Assembly (NCBI GenBank): GCA_018669475.1
Contig: JABHCC010000032.1
Coordinates: 310,753-374,752, forward strand
From: Bacteroidota bacterium
GTDB taxonomy: Bacteria; Bacteroidota; Bacteroidia; Bacteroidales; UBA12481
DNA: 64,000 bases
Direction of reading: 5' to 3'
Of the stretch, positions 18,578 through 52,871 are shown piece after piece (the first letter of the stretch is position 1; each line of letters opens with the position of its first letter). The position numbers were made by a program, and so were the translations under genes. Under the pieces are notes generated by a model, which saw only the letters and a program-made list of their open reading frames with translations, searched no databases and was not told the DNA's origin.

Positions 18578-20695
18578 TTACTTTTTCTTCAATAAATCAA
18601 CTCGTCCAAATATTTTTTCCAAAATTCCCACGGCAATATTCCGTGGAACTTCATCATATTTTTCTACTTCCATTGTTGAGCTGGCACGCCCAGAGGTCAG
18701 TGATCTTAATATAGTCACATATCCAAATTGTTCAGCCAAAGGTACCATTGCTTTAATCACCCGCATTCCAGATCTTGTTTCCATTCCCTCAACCTGTCCT
18801 CTTCTTTTATTAAGATCTGCAATAATCTCACCCATATATTCTTCCGGACCAATTACTTCGGTACGCATTATAGGTTCCATTAGTATTGGGCCTGCCTTTT
18901 CACATCCAGCTCGATAAGCTTTTTGAGCTGCAACTTCGAAGGCGATTTCATCGGATTCATTTGGATGATGGTCTGCATTCTTAAGAGTAACCTTCAGATT
19001 CTGCATAGGGTATCCGGCTAAAACTCCGCTATTCATAGCGTTCTTAAATCCTCTCTCAATTGCTGCTATGAAGATTCGTGGTAGTTTATCTGAATCAAGT
19101 TCCGATTCAAAAACCAGTCCTTTTACACTATCATCAGCCTTCCCTAGTTCAACATCAATGTCTGCAAACAAATGCTTGCCCCCAACCTCCTTATCGAAAA
19201 TTTCACGATGGAAAACATTTTCTGTCAGAGATTCATGATAAGCAACCTGAGGAGTCCCCTTATTAATATTCAGCTTGAACTCTCTACTTAATCGATCAAT
19301 AACAATCTCTAAATGGAGTTCTCCCATCCCACTGACAATAGTTTGTCCTGAATCTTCATCAGTTCTCACTCTGAAGGTCGGATCTTCTTCGGTCAGCTTT
19401 ATCAGGGCAGATGATAATTTATCAACTTCCTCCTGAGAGCGGGCTTCAATTGCAATCCCAAGAACGGGATCAGGAAATGTTATATTCTCCAGATGAATTT
19501 TGTGTTTGTCATCACAAAGTGTATCACCTGTCTTTATATCCTTAAAACCTACTATAGCACAAATATCACCAGCTTCAACCTGGTCTTTTGGATTTTGTTT
19601 ATTTGCATGCATTTGATACAATCGGGTGATTCTTTCTTTCCGATCTGTACGCATGTTATAAACAGCGGCCCCAGATTTAATCACTCCAGAATAGATTCTT
19701 ATGAAGGCAATTCGGCCAACAAAAGGATCAGTTGCAATTTTAAAGGCCAACGCTGCAAAAGGAGATTTGCTTTCAGGTTCCCTGCTGACTTCGTCACCGC
19801 TTCTCGGATCAGAACCAACAATTGCACCGACATCTATCGGACTGGGCAGATAAGCAGCTATTGCATCAAGCAGAGGCTGCACTCCTTTGTTTTTAAAAGC
19901 AGATCCACAAATTATGGGGATCATGCTGTTTGAAAGAGTGGCTTTTCTAACAACCCGACGAATATCTTCATTAGTAATCGAGTCTTTGTCTTCAAAATAG
20001 CGTTCAAGCAAATCATCATCTGTTTCACAAACAGTTTCTAATAATTTCTCACGCCATTGTTCTATTTGTTCCTGATATTCTTCAGGTACATCCACCTTTT
20101 CATAAATTGCACCCAATGAACTGTTTTCTGGCCAAAGTATAGCTTTTTGTTCGATCAGATCGATAACTCCTTCAAAACTATCCTCAGAGCCAATCGGAAT
20201 TTGCAATACTAAAGGAACAGCTAGTAATTTTTCTTGAATTTGAGTAATCACTGAAAAGAAATCAGCGCCCACCCGATCCATTTTATTTATGAAAGCTATT
20301 CTGGGTACCTGGTATTTGTCAGCCTGACGCCAGACTGTTTCTGACTGAGGCTCAACTCCACCAACACCACAAAACACTGCAATGGCTCCATCCAGAACCC
20401 TTAATGATCGTTCAACCTCAACAGTGAAATCCACATGTCCAGGTGTATCGATGATATTAACCTTATACTCATGACCCAGATACTTCCAGAAAGCTGTTGT
20501 AGCAGCAGATGTAATTGTTATCCCCCGCTCCTGCTCCTGAACCATCCAGTCCATTGTTGCAGCACCATTATGAACCTCTCCCATCCGGTGATTAATTCCG
20601 GTATAATACAAAATCCGCTCAGTCGTAGTAGTTTTGCCCGCGTCTATGTGGGCCATAATTCCGATGTTGCGGTAATATGAGAGATCCTGTGCCAT
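18578..20695 (-). CDS. fusA: Elongation factor G (canonical copy)
   Basis: GTPase that drives translocation and, with RRF, ribosome recycling. At 705 aa, all G motifs are intact: P-loop AHIDAGKTT (from residue 15), switch [10 protein letters not shown], switch [10 protein letters not shown] with catalytic His at residue 87, and NKMD. Domains II to V follow, including GMGELHLEI and [18 protein letters not shown] near the C-terminus. It lies in the str order rpsL-rpsG-fusA. Compare the paralog at 25313, which lacks the switch-II His. Confidence 0.99.
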
Positions 20696-20729
20696 CCCAA
20701 CAAGTCAAAGAACTTTTTTTTTAAAAATC

Positions 20730-21206
20730 TTAAAACCGGAAATGTGCAAACGCCCGGTTAGCTTCCGCCATACGGTGGGTATCTTCCTTTCGTTTGAAAG
20801 CTCCACCTTCATCGTTAAAAGCTGCAACAATCTCAGCAGCCAGTTTCTCGCTCATTGAGCGACCTGAACGCTTTCTTGCAAAATCGATCAAGTGTTTGTT
20901 TCCAATTGAAATTTTCCGGTCAGGACGAATCTCCATTGGCACCTGAAATGTAGCACCACCAACACGACGAGATTTCACCTCAACAGCTGGTGTGATATTT
21001 TCCAAAGCCTTCTTCCAAACTTCTAATGCACTGGATTCAGTTTCACCTTTTTTCTTCTCAACTATATCCAAAGCATCATAAAAGATTTGGAAACACTTTG
21101 TCTTTTTCCCGTCCAACATCAAATCATTTACAAAACGGGTTACCCGAATTTCTCCGAATTTCGGATCAGGTAATAATACTCTTTTCTTTGGTTTTGACTT
21201 CCTCAT
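20730..21206 (-). CDS. rpsG: 30S ribosomal protein S7
   Basis: Primary assembly protein of the 30S head. The 158-aa product contains [41 protein letters not shown] and ends [20 protein letters not shown]. It lies between rpsL and fusA. Confidence 0.99.
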
Positions 21207-21228
21207 GGTTATAACTTACAGTCAAGAA

Positions 21229-21606
21229 TTATTTTTTCTTAGGTCGCTTTGTTCCATATTTCGAACGGCGCTGTGTCCGACCCTCAACACCAGCTGCATC
21301 TAATGTTCCACGTACCATATGGTAGCGAACACCTGGTAAATCTTTTACCCTGCCTCCACGTACTAAAACAATGGAGTGTTCCTGCAAATTGTGTCCTTCA
21401 CCAGGGATATAAACGTTAACTTCTTTTTGATTGGTTAATCGTACCCTGGCCACTTTTCGCATGGCTGAGTTAGGCTTTTTTGGTGTAGTAGTATAAACTC
21501 TCACACATACTCCCCTTCTCTGGGGGCAAGCATCCAGTGCAGGAGCCTTACTCTTATCCTTAACCTTTTGCCGTCCTTTTCTTACTAACTGCTGTATTGT
21601 AGGCAT
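21229..21606 (-). CDS. rpsL: 30S ribosomal protein S12
   Basis: Decoding-centre protein. The 125-aa product carries [23 protein letters not shown] and [27 protein letters not shown]. The lysines at the two usual streptomycin-resistance positions (in TPKKPNS and GRVKDLPG) are the wild-type residue. It is the first gene of the supercluster, behind a good Bacteroidetes-type promoter. Confidence 0.99.
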
Positions 21607-21646
21607 ATAAACCTTATTTTTCTTAACTTTTCACAAAATCGGTGTG

Positions 21647-21674
21647 CAAAGGTATAGATTTTTTTTAAAACAAA
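21647..21674 (-). promoter_or_regulatory. Promoter of the ribosomal supercluster (Bacteroidetes type)
   Basis: Read on the minus strand, TACCTTTG (21654-21647) matches the Bacteroidetes -7 element TAnnTTTG exactly, with an upstream TTTG (21674-21671) about 16 nt away and an A/T-rich spacer. It would start transcription roughly 35 nt before rpsL. The upstream element lies inside the T-rich tail of the terminator at 21681-21710, so the two signals abut. Confidence 0.6.
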
Positions 21675-21680
21675 AAACAA

Positions 21681-21710
21681 AAAAGGGAGCTTTGATCAAA
21701 GCTCCCTTTT
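21681..21710 (-). terminator. Perfect palindromic terminator after the small secreted-protein gene
   Basis: A 30-bp perfect palindrome: AAAAGGGAGCTTTGA and its exact reverse complement, with essentially no loop in the formal match. On the minus strand it is followed by a T-rich tail (TTTTGTTTTTTGTTTT). It lies 18 nt beyond the stop of the gene at 21729 and immediately before the rpsL promoter. Confidence 0.8.
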
Positions 21711-21728
21711 AATGTCGTAATATACCTG

Positions 21729-22166
21729 CTACGGATACTTGATAATAATCACTGTAGGAGGTGGCGTCCCACCAGGTCCGCCATCACTATTATTAGGAAT
21801 ATAAAAACCATCAGCTTTGACAAAAACTTGCTTTGAACCAATCTCAATCATAACTTTAAAATCTCTGTTGAGATTCAAATCCCCGATATCGAATATGTAC
21901 AAATCCCAATTCCCATATGATACAATTTTTGCATTTGCGAGCATCTCACCCTTAATGCCAGCTATTTGGACTGCACTCACAAACTGATCTGATTTTTTCT
22001 TCTTTTTTACCATGAAAGTAAAAACATCAAAATCTCCATCCTGATCGGCATCAAAAACAAAGCCTTTTTGTATTTCAATATCCTTAGCCTTAAATGTCTT
22101 TTGACCATAGGATTGACTCATGGTCAATAGTATAATACTTACGGATAACAGGACAATTTTTTTCAT
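21729..22166 (-). CDS. Small secreted protein of unknown function
   Basis: I do not recognise a family. The 145-aa product has a clear signal peptide (MKKIVLLSVSIILLTMSQSYGQ, cleavage expected after YGQ). The mature protein holds DADQDGDFDVF, which has the DxDxDGxxD spacing of EF-hand-like or dockerin-like calcium loops, then a predicted beta-rich middle. It ends in a Gly/Pro-rich tail GGPGGTPPPT and VIIIKYP. It has its own promoter-like sequence and terminator, so it is a monocistronic unit divergent from the CHAT-protein gene. Export is likely; calcium binding is a guess from one motif. Confidence 0.75.
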   Translation of the reverse strand: MKKIVLLSVSIILLTMSQSYGQKTFKAKDIEIQKGFVFDADQDGDFDVFTFMVKKKKKSDQFVSAVQIAGIKGEMLANAKIVSYGNWDLYIFDIGDLNLNRDFKVMIEIGSKQVFVKADGFYIPNNSDGGPGGTPPPTVIIIKYP

Positions 22167-22217
22167 CTGAATTATATTTTAAGATTATTTTCCTAATGGT
22201 TAATCCCTATTGAGTCC

Positions 22218-22249
22218 GAAAGGTAACCCCATAAAATCGAAAAAATCAA
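22218..22249 (-). promoter_or_regulatory. Probable promoter of the small secreted-protein gene
   Basis: On the minus strand, TTG (22249-22247), a 21-nt spacer and TACCTTTC (22225-22218), one base off the TAnnTTTG -7 consensus. It lies about 50 nt before the start codon at 22166. Confidence 0.4.
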
Positions 22250-22328
22250 CTATTAAGACCATTTTTTGACGAACGACAAGAATTCAGGCTGTTTTTATAT
22301 ATATATTTACCTCCCACCGTCTGAGTCT

Positions 22329-25178
22329 ATGGCCAAATATACCATATTTAAAATATTACCCATACTAATCTTAAGCAGTTTCTTGTTGATTCTGTCAGAA
22401 AGTTATTGTGCATGCCAGGAAAGTATGCTGTATCCTGAAACTGTAGTCGATGAGTATTTCTCTGAGAATTATAATGAGGCAGCTACATTAGCTTCAAATC
22501 ATTTTCAGAATGTAATTGGTGCCTCACATGATAGTCTCAAGCAAGGATTTGTGATACGTCTGGCCTTTCTTTCTGCTTGGTCAGAGAACATTGTCACCGC
22601 CGAAATCTATAACCGGGGGTGGAGTCAGGTCGAAGAAAAAGACAGCATACCACCAAACTCTTGGGAAATCGCTGATCACTATGCAATCTATTCAGTAATT
22701 GCCAACCTGGATAGACGATACAAAGATGCACTGGACACACTCCAACTTTCAATCAATCACAGACTCCCTACAAACCGATTGGAAAAAGCGATTTTGGCAG
22801 ATTGCTATCAGTTTATGGGAGTCCTCAATGCCCAACTTGGGGATTACGCAAAAGCCATTGCCAGCTACCGTGAAGCAAAAACAATAAACCTTGGCAATAA
22901 ACGCAAGGCTGCTAATTATCAAATAGAATATGAGATGGCCAAATCCAGGATCTTTTTAAACCCTGGTGAACCATCAATTCTGGATTCATTAAACAACTGT
23001 CTTGAGTATTTCATCCGGGAGGAAAAAACAAATCTCATCGTCAATACTTACAATGAAATTGGAAACTTCTACCTGTCTGATAACAACAACATTGAGGCAG
23101 CCAAACAGTTCAGAATCTCTCTGGATTTGCGAATAAAAACTCATAATCTTGATGAGATAAATGTCGCTTTCAACAATCTTGGAGCTGCCTTTAATCTGTT
23201 AAATCAGGCAGATAGCGCAATATTCTATTTTTATCAGGCCATAGCGCACACACCAGATGACAACTACAATCAGGCTGCTAATTATCACAATAATCTGGGA
23301 GCCCAGTTCGGTAAGTTGAATAAACCGGATTCTGCGCTATATCATTTTAGCCATGCCATTAACCTGATATTTCCTTATAAAATAAGCAATTCATTGAATG
23401 AGCTGGGCAATCTTAAAATATTATCTCCAATACTACCAGTTTTTTTAGCCAACCAGGGGAATGCGAAACTTGACCTGTATTATGATACCAGGGAACATCA
23501 TTGGCTTACTGAAAGCGTACAAACATTAGAATATGCAGTTGATCTACTTGATCAGTTGAGATATATGTCCTCATTCGAGTCAAAGAATTTTTCAGTCCGT
23601 GAAAACAGGGGTTTCTATTTCCTCGCCCTGGAAGCTGCAATTGAACAGTACAAAGACAATCCCACAACAATCAACTTTCAAACTGTATTTAACTTCTCCT
23701 ACAAAGCTAAGTCGGCAGTATTTAATGAATATCAACGAGTTTTGAATGCCAGAGATTCAATGATGATTGATCAGACTTTAATTCAAAAAGATGATAGCCT
23801 TAAAAGGTTATTGACCCAAACCTCGCAAGAATTGATTCAATTCAGAAGGCTTGGTCCTGACTGGGCTGATTCAGTGGCCCACCGTAACAGTTTGCTGATA
23901 AATCTGGATCTGATGATTCAAGATCATTCAAAGGTATTACGCCAGAAATATCCGGCCTATTATAATTATATACATACCCCAGACCAAATAGACTATACTG
24001 ACATTCAGGCAAAGCTTGAAAAGGATGAAGTTATTATTGACTTCACATATTCTGCTGATCTTATAGCTGCTTTATTAATTGCCAGGGATAATATATCGAT
24101 CCATACAGAGACCCTATCGGATGATTTCATTGCCAAAATAGAAGATTACAGGAATTTCTTTGCCCGTTTCTCAAAGCTGGGTTTTAGTGATTTCATCGGG
24201 ATTGGGTATGATCTTTATATGAAGCTTCTTGAACCTTTCAAAGACCAAATCCTTGATAAGGATTTGATTATTATTACTGATGGACCACTCGGATATATCC
24301 CCTTTGACACATTCTGTACATGTGCAGATATTCCCGTCAGAAAAAACTATAGTGAATTGCCCATGCTTGTTAAAACAACAACAATATCACTATTGAATTC
24401 CATTCAGCAGTTCCATGATGCCCGAAACTTTCATTCAGATAATTTGGTAAGCGTACAGGCTTTTGCTCCTTTTACCGATACGCACTACTATTATAATGAA
24501 TATAAACTTCCCCAACTAATGGGAAGTAGGAGAGAACTCAGATCAATCAGCAATCACATGGCATCCCATTCTCACCAGGGATCAAAAGCTTCTCTAAGCA
24601 AATTCCATCAGGTCAGGAATCAGGGGGATATCCTCCACCTGGCAACTCATGGAATACTTTCATCAGACAACCCAATGGACAATCTGCTGATTTTCAGCCC
24701 TGAAGGACAGCAAAAGCACAAACTACACCTTTACGATGTAATTAATCTCTCAATAAAATCTCCATTAGTTGTGTTAAGTGCTTGTGATACAGGAACTGGT
24801 GATTTATTTGAAGGAGAGGGAATAATGAGTGTTACCCGTGGATTTCATTTTGCCGGTGTACCGGCCGTTATTATGAGCCTTTGGCCTGCCTATGACCGTC
24901 CGGCTGTTGTAATCATGGATAATTTTTATCGTGAATTAGGGCAGGGATTGGGCACTGCAGAATCTTTACGTCAGGCTAAGCTTAATTATCTTATATCAGC
25001 ATCATCAGCTGAGAGTCATCCTAGTTTATGGGCCAATTATCAACTGAGTGGGATAAATAGCAAAATCCCACTCAAAAACAAGTTTGGATGGCCCCTGTTA
25101 TTAGGATTAATTTCCGGGCTCATCCTAATGTATTTTGTTGTTAAATCCCTTGGGTCCAGATTTGGAAAAACAGATTGA
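22329..25178 (+). CDS. Exported TPR-CHAT domain protein with C-terminal membrane anchor
   Basis: Start set at the ATG at 22329, which gives the signal-peptide-like MAKYTIFKILPILILSSFLLILSES; the track's TTG at 22266 adds 21 unlikely residues. The protein is 949 aa. The first half has tetratricopeptide-like repeats (for example QFMGVLNAQLGDYAKAIASYREA, NAQLG, NNLGAAFNLLNQADSAIFYFYQA). The C-terminal third is a CHAT caspase-like peptidase domain with the expected pair: His774 in LHLATHG and Cys819 in LSACDTGTGD, followed by GVPAVIMSLWP. A single hydrophobic segment (WPLLLGLISGLILMYFVV) is near the end. A CHAT protease tethered in the envelope is likely; its substrate and trigger are unknown. 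Confidence 0.88.
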   Translation: MAKYTIFKILPILILSSFLLILSESYCACQESMLYPETVVDEYFSENYNEAATLASNHFQNVIGASHDSLKQGFVIRLAFLSAWSENIVTAEIYNRGWSQVEEKDSIPPNSWEIADHYAIYSVIANLDRRYKDALDTLQLSINHRLPTNRLEKAILADCYQFMGVLNAQLGDYAKAIASYREAKTINLGNKRKAANYQIEYEMAKSRIFLNPGEPSILDSLNNCLEYFIREEKTNLIVNTYNEIGNFYLSDNNNIEAAKQFRISLDLRIKTHNLDEINVAFNNLGAAFNLLNQADSAIFYFYQAIAHTPDDNYNQAANYHNNLGAQFGKLNKPDSALYHFSHAINLIFPYKISNSLNELGNLKILSPILPVFLANQGNAKLDLYYDTREHHWLTESVQTLEYAVDLLDQLRYMSSFESKNFSVRENRGFYFLALEAAIEQYKDNPTTINFQTVFNFSYKAKSAVFNEYQRVLNARDSMMIDQTLIQKDDSLKRLLTQTSQELIQFRRLGPDWADSVAHRNSLLINLDLMIQDHSKVLRQKYPAYYNYIHTPDQIDYTDIQAKLEKDEVIIDFTYSADLIAALLIARDNISIHTETLSDDFIAKIEDYRNFFARFSKLGFSDFIGIGYDLYMKLLEPFKDQILDKDLIIITDGPLGYIPFDTFCTCADIPVRKNYSELPMLVKTTTISLLNSIQQFHDARNFHSDNLVSVQAFAPFTDTHYYYNEYKLPQLMGSRRELRSISNHMASHSHQGSKASLSKFHQVRNQGDILHLATHGILSSDNPMDNLLIFSPEGQQKHKLHLYDVINLSIKSPLVVLSACDTGTGDLFEGEGIMSVTRGFHFAGVPAVIMSLWPAYDRPAVVIMDNFYRELGQGLGTAESLRQAKLNYLISASSAESHPSLWANYQLSGINSKIPLKNKFGWPLLLGLISGLILMYFVVKSLGSRFGKTD

Positions 25179-25220
25179 AATTTTGTTATTAATCATACTT
25201 CTTCAAGTCAATTCTACCGA

Positions 25221-25250
25221 TTGATTCTTACGAAAAAAATGTTAGATTTG
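25221..25250 (+). promoter_or_regulatory. Promoter of fusA2 (Bacteroidetes type)
   Basis: TTG at 25221-25223, a 19-nt spacer and TAGATTTG at 25243-25250, an exact TAnnTTTG match at near-ideal spacing. It leaves a leader of about 55 nt before the ATG at 25313, long enough for control at the leader level, though I see no clear structure in it. Confidence 0.65.
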
Positions 25251-25312
25251 CATTCCTAAATAAACAGGCTGAAATCCTAATATTCAGATCATCAAGTTAA
25301 AAAGGTACTAAA

Positions 25313-27469
25313 ATGAAAGTATACCAAACCAATCAAATTCGGAACCTAGTGCTTTTAGGCAATTCCGGATCAGGAAAAACCACTCTGGCTGAATCGTTTA
25401 TGTTGGATGGCGGTATTATCAGCAGACGAGGCGATGTTGATAACAAAAATACCGTATCTGATTACCATGAGATAGAGCACGAAAGAGGCAGCTCAGTTTA
25501 CTCCACTGTTTTTTATTCAGAATTCAAAGATCATAAGCTAAACTTCATTGACACACCTGGCTCAGATGATTTTGTTGGAGCAGCTGTTGCAAGCTTGAAT
25601 GCAGCTGACGTAGCCCTGGTTGTTATGAACTCTCAGAATGGTGTTGAGGTTGGTACTGAAACTTTCATGCGTTATGCCAACAAATTCAACAAACCTGTTG
25701 TTCTGGTGGCAAATCAGCTTGATTCAGATAAATGTGTTTTTGACAAGCTTGTTGAGTCTGCCAAAGATGCTTTTGGCTCTAAGGTTGTTGTGGCACAATA
25801 TCCAGTTAATGAAGGAGAAAATTTTGACACAGTTCTTGATGTTATACGTAAGGTTGCTTATAAATTCCCTGTCGACGGAGGCCCACCAGAGGAGGTAGCT
25901 CTGACAGATTCTCAATCTGAAAAAGTTGAAGAATTATACATTGAGCTAATTGAAGCCGTTGCGGAGACTGATGAAGAATTGATGGAGACATTCTTTGAAA
26001 ATGACACATTAACTGAAGATGAAATACGGAAGGGATTGAGAAAAGGATTAGCTGAAAGGGGCTTATTCCCAATCTTCTGTACGAGTGGCAAACAGGCGCA
26101 GGGCACACAGCGACTTATGGAATTCATTATCAACACAGTTCCTGAACCTACTGAATTTAGCGGCCCAGTTGATCAGGATGGTAATATAGTGAAGATTGAT
26201 CCTGATGGAAAAACTACCCTGTTCGTATTTAAAAACTTCACTGAACCTCATCTTGGCGAAGTAAGTTTCTTTAAAGTGATTTCAGGCGAACTAAATGAAG
26301 GCGACGACTTGTATAATCATAATACTAATACAAAGGAAAGACTCTCTCAGATGTTTTTGGTTGCCGGCAAGAATCGCGAAAAAATATCAAGTATTCATGC
26401 TGGTGATATTGGTGCTGCAGTGAAGCTGAAAGACACTAAAGTATTTACTACTCTGGGTGAAAAAGATTTACCCGCTCCATTAGTTCCGATTGAAATGCCT
26501 GAACCAAAATACCGGGCTGCCATTAAAACAAAGGACGAGTCGGATGACGAAAAATTAGGCGAAATGCTTAACCGTCTGCATCAGGAAGATCCTTCATTAT
26601 TGGTTGAATACTCAAAAGAACTCAAACAGATTATTCTTAGTGGGCAGGGAGAATATCACCTTAATATTATTTCTTCAATTTTGCTAAATCAGTATAAGAT
26701 TGAGACAGAATACTTGTCACCTAAGATTCCATATCGGGAGACTATAACAAAATATGCTCAAGCCCAATTCCGTCATAAAAAGCAGTCAGGTGGAGCCGGA
26801 CAGTTTGGTGAGGTACATATGATAATTGAGCCTCATGATGATAATAGCCCAGAAAGGAATGTCTTCAAGGTAAATGGAAAAGAGCTGACACTATCCCTCA
26901 GAGGGAAAGAAGAACATCCTCTGGCCTGGGGAGGTAAGCTTGTATTTTATAATTGCATTGTAGGTGGATCTATTGACACCCGTTTCTTACCTGCCATTCT
27001 TAAAGGTTTGATGGAAAAACTTGAAAATGGTCCATTAACCGGCAGTTATGCAAGGGACATCAGAGTTTACGTTTATGACGGCAAAATGCACCCGGTTGAC
27101 TCAAATGAAATTTCATTTAAGCTTGCTGGTGCAAAAGCTTTTGCTGAAGCGTTCAAAAATGCCGGCCCAAAGATTCTTGAGCCAGTTTATGAGGTTGAAG
27201 TGATGGTTCCAGGTGACCGTATGGGTGATGTTATGAGTGACTTACAGGGACGAAGAGCTATGATTCTTGGAATGAGTTCTGAAGGTCGCTATGAAATCCT
27301 TAAGGCAAAAGTCCCTTTAGCTGAATTGAATAAATACTCAACTGCTTTGAGTTCTCTAACCAGTGGTCGCGCAACTTATACTATGAGATATAGTGATTAT
27401 GCTTTATGTCCACCTGATATTCAGGACAAACTGATTTCAAGTTATGAAGCAGATCAGGATGATGAATAA
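25313..27469 (+). CDS. fusA2: EF-G paralog (EF-G2) lacking the catalytic switch-II histidine
   Basis: A 718-aa EF-G-like protein with all five domains. The P-loop is intact (GNSGSGKT, residues 16-23). Switch I reads ERGSSVYST instead of RGITI, switch II reads DTPGSDDF with Ser84 where the catalytic His belongs, and the G4 motif is NQLD instead of NKMD. Domain IV-V signatures remain (GQGEYHLN, GGAGQFGEVHM, SLTSGRATYTMRYSDYALCP). A Bacteroides EF-G paralog is reported to support translation without GTP hydrolysis, and this sequence fits that type. It is a single gene with its own promoter and terminator, far from the canonical fusA. Confidence 0.9.
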   Translation: MKVYQTNQIRNLVLLGNSGSGKTTLAESFMLDGGIISRRGDVDNKNTVSDYHEIEHERGSSVYSTVFYSEFKDHKLNFIDTPGSDDFVGAAVASLNAADVALVVMNSQNGVEVGTETFMRYANKFNKPVVLVANQLDSDKCVFDKLVESAKDAFGSKVVVAQYPVNEGENFDTVLDVIRKVAYKFPVDGGPPEEVALTDSQSEKVEELYIELIEAVAETDEELMETFFENDTLTEDEIRKGLRKGLAERGLFPIFCTSGKQAQGTQRLMEFIINTVPEPTEFSGPVDQDGNIVKIDPDGKTTLFVFKNFTEPHLGEVSFFKVISGELNEGDDLYNHNTNTKERLSQMFLVAGKNREKISSIHAGDIGAAVKLKDTKVFTTLGEKDLPAPLVPIEMPEPKYRAAIKTKDESDDEKLGEMLNRLHQEDPSLLVEYSKELKQIILSGQGEYHLNIISSILLNQYKIETEYLSPKIPYRETITKYAQAQFRHKKQSGGAGQFGEVHMIIEPHDDNSPERNVFKVNGKELTLSLRGKEEHPLAWGGKLVFYNCIVGGSIDTRFLPAILKGLMEKLENGPLTGSYARDIRVYVYDGKMHPVDSNEISFKLAGAKAFAEAFKNAGPKILEPVYEVEVMVPGDRMGDVMSDLQGRRAMILGMSSEGRYEILKAKVPLAELNKYSTALSSLTSGRATYTMRYSDYALCPPDIQDKLISSYEADQDDE

Positions 27470-50723: not shown

Positions 50724-52871
50724 ATGGCAGATAAAAAATCTCAAAATACACGCCCGACTTTTAATCCCAAAAGGAAACTGGGTGATTCTCAAAAAAATAA
50801 AAAGAAATTCAATGTTTATTGGGTTTACGGGATAATCTTCGTCTTTTTCGTAGCATTTAATATTTTGAATGGACGAAATAAGGCAACTGAAATAACCAGC
50901 AGGCAGTTTGAGGAAGACATGCTGAAGCGGGGTGACGTTGCAAAAGTTGTGGTAGTGAACCGGGAATTGGTTGAGATTACCATCAAGGATGATCGCCTTT
51001 CTGATGCCAGATATGCAAATCTGCTCAACACAGGTTTCTCAACTGCTCCAAAAAAAGGTCCTCATTTCTATTTTCAAATTGCCTCAATTGACATATTTGA
51101 CAAGAACTTCTATCAAGCTCAGAAGGATTTATCAGATACCGACCAGATCAGCTATTCTGTATCCACCCGAAAAGACTATTTCATGGAGATCCTTGGATGG
51201 ATCATCCCAATTGGATTATTAGTCGTTGTGTGGCTGTTCCTTTTCCGACGTATGAGTGGTGGCGGAGGTGGTGCCGGCGGTGCCGGGAATATTTTCTCAG
51301 TGGGTAAAAGCAAGGCGAAAATTTTCAATAAGGAGGAATCGAACATTACGGTATCTTTCAAAGACGTTGCCGGATTACAAGAAGCCAAAGTAGAGGTAAT
51401 GGAAATTGTTGACTTTCTGAAAAGCCCGCAAAAATACACCAAATTGGGTGGAAAAATCCCCAAGGGTGCACTTCTCGTTGGCCCTCCCGGTACTGGTAAA
51501 ACATTATTGGCAAAAGCTGTTGCCGGTGAAGCAAATGTCCCATTTTTCTCTATGTCAGGATCTGATTTTGTAGAGATGTTTGTAGGTGTTGGAGCCTCCC
51601 GTGTTCGTGATCTTTTCAAGCAGGCCAAGGAAAAAGCTCCTTGTATAGTATTTATTGATGAGATTGATGCAATTGGACGTGCCCGTGGAAGAAATCCAAA
51701 TTATGGCTCAAATGATGAACGTGAAAACACTCTGAATCAGTTGTTGACTGAGATGGATGGTTTTGATTCTAATTCAGGAGTAATTATTCTGGCTGCTACA
51801 AACCGGGCTGATGTCCTTGACAAAGCTCTGATGAGAGCCGGTCGTTTTGACCGTCAGATTCATGTTGAGCTACCTGACTTAAATGAGAGAGCTGATATTT
51901 TTAAGGTCCACCTTAAAAACGTTAAATACGATCCTGATCTTGATATCGCCTTTTTTGCAAAACAAACTCCTGGTTTCAGTGGTGCTGATATTGCCAATGT
52001 TTGTAATGAATCCGCATTGATCGCTGCAAGGAAAGAGAAGAAGATGGTTGAGCGTCAGGATTTTCTTGATGCTGTTGACCGCATTATTGGTGGTCTGGAA
52101 AAGAAAAACAAATTAATCACACCCATTGAGAAAAAAGCTGTGGCATACCATGAAGCTGGTCATGCTACTGTGAGCTGGTTGCTGGAGCATGCCCATCCAT
52201 TGGTAAAGGTGACCATTGTACCCAGAGGAAAAGCTTTGGGAGCAGCCTGGTACCTTCCTGAAGAAAGGCAACTCACTACAACGGAGCAAATTGAAGATGA
52301 GATTGCTGCAGCTCTTGGTGGTCGTGCTGCTGAAGAACTGACTTTTGGACAAATATCCACCGGTGCATTAAATGACCTTGAGAAAGCTACCAAGCAGGCA
52401 TTCGCCATGGTCAGCTATTTTGGAATGTCAGAAAAAATAGGAAATATTAGCTTCTATGACTCAACAGGTCAGTCAGAATACTCTTTCAATAAGCCATATA
52501 GCGAAAAAACAGCTGAACTTATTGACCATGAAACCAAAGAAATCATCAATAAAGCCTATGCTGTTGCCAAAGACATTCTGGTAAAATATAAAGATCAGCA
52601 TATAAAACTTGCAGAATTACTACTTGAGAAAGAAGTAATATTCGCTGAGGACCTGGAAAAGATTTTTGGCCCCAGTAAAAACCAGAGTTCTGAATTGTTA
52701 GCTATGACCGAATCAGTTAAGGTTACCAAGAAGCCAGCAAAAAGGAAAAAGAAGGAAGAAGTTCTTGCAAAAACATATGCAAAAGACGAAAAGAAGAAAG
52801 TTGCTCCAAAGAAGCCAAAGCCTGTTAAAAAAGCAGAAATAAAAGACAAAGAAAAACCAGAAGATGCCTGA
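50724..52871 (+). CDS. ftsH: ATP-dependent zinc metalloprotease FtsH
   Basis: Membrane-anchored AAA+ protease that degrades misfolded membrane and short-lived proteins. The 715-aa product has an N-terminal membrane helix (~residues 32-48), a periplasmic domain and a second helix (~150-172). The AAA domain carries [26 protein letters not shown] and [21 protein letters not shown], and the protease domain has zinc site HEAGH. A poly-Gly linker and a Lys-rich C-terminal tail (~50 residues) are extra. Its stop overlaps the LUD gene by 8 nt. Confidence 0.98.

Follow-up and report, generated by a model that had tools for sequence, protein, structure and literature searches.

Does an EF-G paralog that lacks the switch-II His still hydrolyse GTP on the ribosome, and is the missing His what would silence it? 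The question is raised by fusA2, a gene in a 64,000-nucleotide stretch of DNA (the window) from a 5.56 Mb Bacteroidales assembly. The initial annotation read Ser84 in the DTPGSDDF motif of its product against His87 in the DTPGHVDF motif of the window's canonical fusA, which is right to the residue, and argued from the missing His that the protein is a Bacteroides-type EF-G2 without GTPase activity. The features concerned are as follows.

18578-20695, reverse strand: canonical fusA, EF-G, 705 aa, with His87, used as the comparator (TIGR00484, 949 bits)
20730-21206, reverse strand: rpsG (S7) of the str operon (TIGR01029)
21235-21606, reverse strand: rpsL (S12) of the str operon (TIGR00981 match G000:C171:331987-332358, window offset 310752)
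25313-27469, forward strand: fusA2, EF-G2, 718 aa (open reading frame with ATG start; NF058620 profile; 8dmf fold match)
25355-25393, forward strand: P-loop region LGNSGSGKTTLAE, residues 15-27, GxxxxGKT kept, with EFG II marks Gly16 and Leu25 (PMC3150367)
25484-25498, forward strand: switch I RGSSV, residues 58-62 (canonical RGITI), with EFG II mark Ser61
25550-25573, forward strand: G3/switch II DTPGSDDF, residues 80-87; the Ser84 codon is TCA, 25562-25564
25712-25723, forward strand: G4 motif NQLD, residues 134-137 (canonical NKMD)
26837-26914, forward strand: domain IV insertion of 26 residues (509-534, DDNSPERNVFKVNGKELTLSLRGKEE) that T. thermophilus EF-G lacks
27089-27091, forward strand: His593, aligned to T. 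thermophilus H573 at the tip of domain IV and invariant in 194 EF-G2s

The canonical EF-G of the window reads DTPGHVDF and NKMD and adjoins rpsG and rpsL. It shares the five-domain fold and about 30% identity with the fusA2 product, but differs in having His87 and the P-loop Asp and in lying within the str operon. A second candidate for canonical fusA, the open reading frame at 50724-52871, was rejected, as it encodes FtsH. The altered switch I at 25484 and G4 motif at 25712 both read as claimed. The P-loop, described as kept, does retain the GxxxxGKT consensus, but Gly19 (NSGSGKT) replaces the Asp of canonical HIDAGKT. Elsewhere in the same genome, a second canonical-type EF-G with DTPGH is found in two pieces (L188:2556-3695 and L189:4289-5560, on contigs C11 and C168); both lie at contig ends, and their 333-bp overlap is only 94.6% identical, so they represent two copies or a strain mixture. 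A further 656-aa EF-G-like protein with DTPGH (L190:2773-4740, contig C58) is nearest the ribosomal protection family, scoring 589 bits with tet_protect, under the 775 cut-off.

The assignment to the Bacteroides EF-G2 class is borne out by several lines of evidence. The curated NCBIfam model NF058620 (EFG2_Bacteroid) matches residues 1-717 of 717 with 1132.9 bits, above its cut-off of 1000 bits. The best PDB sequence match is 7uvp/8dmf, full length and reading PGSDDF in the alignment; the sequence record labels this chain 'Tetracycline resistance protein TetQ', while the entry itself is EF-G2. Domains II-V, said to be kept, are recognised by Pfam, and the AlphaFold2 model forms one full-length EF-G fold (mean pLDDT 90.9), whose top fold match is 8dmf, ribosome-bound B. 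thetaiotaomicron EF-G2 (TM 0.93, rmsd 2.9). Margus et al. list six conserved EFG II positions, in 1WDT numbers Gly16, Leu25, Ser61, Thr291, Gly333 and Lys352 (PMC3150367); the fusA2 product carries five of the six (Gly16, Leu25, Ser61, Gly352 and Lys371 in its own numbering), with Asn308 in place of Thr. In the tree, it falls in a clade of 26-residue insertions with B. thetaiotaomicron-like proteins (support 94) and within its own family clade (support 100). The EF-G2s of seven sequenced relatives from its own family are 69-71% identical, and the nearest among named genomes, from Marinilabiliaceae and uncultured Bacteroidales/Bacteroidetes, are 57-61% identical. The assembly was assigned to Bacteroidales from these nearest EF-G2 relatives and from the order that it shares with Bacteroidaceae-like genomes. 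By sequence, fold and phylogeny, the fusA2 product is a Bacteroidales EF-G2, a paralog of the EFG II subfamily and an already known type, here in a lineage only distantly related to the gut species.

B. thetaiotaomicron EF-G2 (fusA2, BT2167; 8dmf/7uvp; NF058620) is colinear with the window protein over 718 aa at about 55-57% identity and shares Ser84, NQLD and a 26-residue insertion in the matching place. It differs in reading YGY and DCPG (DCPGSDDF) where the window protein has RG in switch I and DTPG, and the window gene lies beside the str operon without a clear Cur operator. T. thermophilus EF-G-2 (1WDT) shares the EFG II marks and also lacks the switch-II His (Tyr, DAPGY), but is 665 aa long and only about 32% identical in structural alignment. 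M. smegmatis EF-G2 (9k0z) has an EF-G-like fold and the same His-to-Tyr replacement (DTPGY), but is far more distant (30% in structural alignment).

To place Ser84 among its relatives, we used 194 aligned EF-G2 sequences, the window protein included, drawn from a phylum scan (396 genomes), 60 nearer relatives and 80 named-genome loci. His occurs at position 84 in none of the 194, so its loss in the window protein is not a chance event. The residue found instead is Ser (59), Tyr (47), Ala (32), Phe (28), Leu (15) or Thr (10), with a few Met and Pro. With the trait columns excluded from tree building, a single change suffices for the His/non-His split, against 18 for Ser versus any other residue and 44 for residue 84 overall. 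Because the residue varies and is never His, the position is free provided that it is not His. All seven same-family relatives have Ala here; together with the 18 Ser/other changes, this rules out Ser84 as a conserved functional Ser, and the Ser of the window protein probably arose from Ala independently. No catalytic His lies elsewhere in switch II, as His74, the sole His in residues 60-110, precedes the DxxG motif.

The step from a missing His to a missing GTPase is unsupported on its own, since no tested relative retains the His; T. thermophilus EF-G-2 is one of them, with Tyr at this position, and GTP hydrolysis has been reported for it (PMC3150367, PMC3832671). M. smegmatis EF-G2, also with Tyr, is reported to lack ribosome-dependent GTPase activity (PMC3832671). 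For E. coli EF-G, ribosome-stimulated hydrolysis is only 7-fold slower with H91A, at 28 per s, and near wild type with H91Q, and His91 mutants are affected more in Pi release than in hydrolysis; H91A has been called dead by earlier or other groups (PMC4532990). Loss of GTPase activity cannot be predicted from the switch-II residue alone, and the His, being absent in all 194 relatives, is not diagnostic of Bacteroides EF-G2.

The reasoning from Ser84 was also incomplete in that it overlooked the domain IV insertion. Residues 509-534, exactly 26, are skipped in the alignment to T. thermophilus EF-G, while 7uvp aligns across them; in the AlphaFold2 model they contain strands 517-520 and 523-526 and the start of 531-536. 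Han et al. 2023 reportedly described a 26-residue region that EF-G lacks, that EF-G2 requires for its function and that explains the missing GTPase; from its equal length and its placement in the reported protein, we take residues 509-534 to be that region. In the most basal relatives the insertion measures 0-2 residues; most other Bacteroidota have 17, and Bacteroidales have 24-42, usually 26. It is 26 residues long in 90 of the 114 members of the clade enclosing the window EF-G2. Only three changes on the tree account for the three length classes, the order of the 26- and 17-residue clades being that of a FastTree tree in which several deep nodes are weakly supported. In sequence, the insertion shares only about 30% identity with that of the host-associated clade, which counts against a GTPase-less reading. 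The P-loop Asp, which aids hydrolysis in translational GTPases, is missing from all of the 194 aligned relatives except one. The insertion is a better marker than the missing His, and the insertion, the lost P-loop Asp and the lost His together are a more likely cause of absent hydrolysis than Ser84 alone.

All domains of the protein are under strong constraint. Across the 194 relatives, G21-K22-T23, D80, G83 and N134 of the nucleotide site are invariant or nearly so and D137 is kept, while H593, Q491 and the GG-G loop (G493, G494, G496) at the domain IV tip are invariant. Within the genus, dN lies far below dS in all domains; dS is saturated, so dN served only to rank the domains. In close relatives, nonsynonymous change is low throughout and mostly lower in domains III-V than in the G domain. 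The host-associated clade mostly reads YGY and DCPG, whereas the window protein retains R58, G59 and DTPG, so that by its motifs it is less altered than Bacteroides EF-G2, a second point against a GTPase-less reading. Separately, EF-G2 is found in two pieces in two assemblies (L105 and L142), with an internal stop or frameshift that may reflect sequencing error or decay.

The kept nucleotide site, the invariant domain IV tip and the constraint fit hydrolysis-free translocation by analogy with B. thetaiotaomicron EF-G2, which reportedly carries out translocation without hydrolysing GTP (cited in PMC12775393 and PMC10294740). We consider it likely that the window EF-G2 would bind the ribosome together with GTP, drive tRNA-mRNA translocation by this binding and by the tip of domain IV, and leave without normal ribosome-stimulated GTP hydrolysis. 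Such translocation would be slow but cheaper in energy, and the canonical EF-G from the adjoining str operon would serve fast growth.

It is also conceivable, though we think it unlikely, that the window EF-G2 retains slow GTP hydrolysis like that of T. thermophilus EF-G-2, its changed switches retuning the activity rather than abolishing it. That protein reads DAPGY yet is reported to be active, and a nucleotide site under constraint, the low dN in all domains (against a saturated dS) and the RG and DTPG motifs lost in Bacteroides would all suit residual turnover; the 26-residue insertion and Ser84, however, are as in B. thetaiotaomicron EF-G2 and absent from T. thermophilus EF-G-2, and the P-loop Asp is gone as well. 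A role in ribosome recycling or rescue instead of elongation, as for spdEFG2 or mtEF-G2, has precedent in the split functions of Borrelia and mitochondria (PMC3832671) but is highly improbable here: neither the His at the domain IV tip nor the GG-G loop varies, translocation is supported by the closest relative of solved structure, and the best-matching family is EFG2_Bacteroid rather than spdEFG. The 44 changes at residue 84 might suggest that Ser84 is a random lesion in a decaying duplicate or an artefact of assembly, but this reading is already contradicted by the intact 718-aa reading frame, the conserved gene order in the family, the constraint across all domains and the lack of His in all 194 relatives.

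The genomic setting of this probable hydrolysis-free translocase is conserved within the family. In the window, fusA2 and rpsL are divergent and 3.7 kb apart, and in all eight mapped genomes of the family fusA2 neighbours the str operon (rpsL, rpsG and fusA; window 18578-27469) in this divergent arrangement. Both genes were mapped in 48 relatives; in 16 of them, which include these eight, fusA2 is less than 10 kb from rpsL and always divergent; none of the Bacteroidaceae-like genomes of this mapped set shows the linkage, and in many of the remaining relatives the two genes are on different contigs. The order of a CHAT-TPR protein, fusA2 and a PKD/CHU_C protein is kept in the family genomes. 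The first of these, a CHAT domain and TPR repeat protein (window 22266-25178) directly upstream of fusA2, is 29-39% identical across the family, compared with about 70% for fusA2.

The Cur/BT4338 operator is the site of a carbon-starvation regulator (PMC6989115). With at most one mismatch, it occurs upstream of EF-G2 genes in 14 of 47 members of the host-associated clade versus 1 of 145 elsewhere (Fisher P 6e-9, a value inflated by related sequences; about 0.01 expected by shuffling). The best match upstream of the window fusA2, at 25182-25197, has three mismatches (shuffle P 0.03-0.05) and those in seven family members have four to five, so this candidate operator is not convincing and Cur starvation control of the window gene is not established.

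Tentatively, the str-linked EF-G2s of Bacteroidales outside the host-associated clade may represent an earlier GTP-sparing translocase, in which GTPase activity would have been lost stepwise, with the His and P-loop Asp lost once, followed by a 17- and then a 26-residue insertion. Gut lineages might later have relocated the gene and brought it under Cur; in the window's lineage it may instead be co-controlled with ribosome synthesis. The finding cautions that the switch-II His alone misleads as a diagnostic, as none of the 194 relatives has it, and activity is reported for a relative with Tyr in its place. It extends the Bacteroides EF-G2 type well beyond gut species, and the parts worth keeping are the gradation in insertions and switch changes and, outside host-associated lineages, the linkage to the str operon. 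This graded natural series, with insertions of 0-2, 17 or 26 residues and Tyr, Phe, Leu, Thr, Ala or Ser at residue 84, could test what silences GTP hydrolysis, and whether translocation needs that hydrolysis at all.
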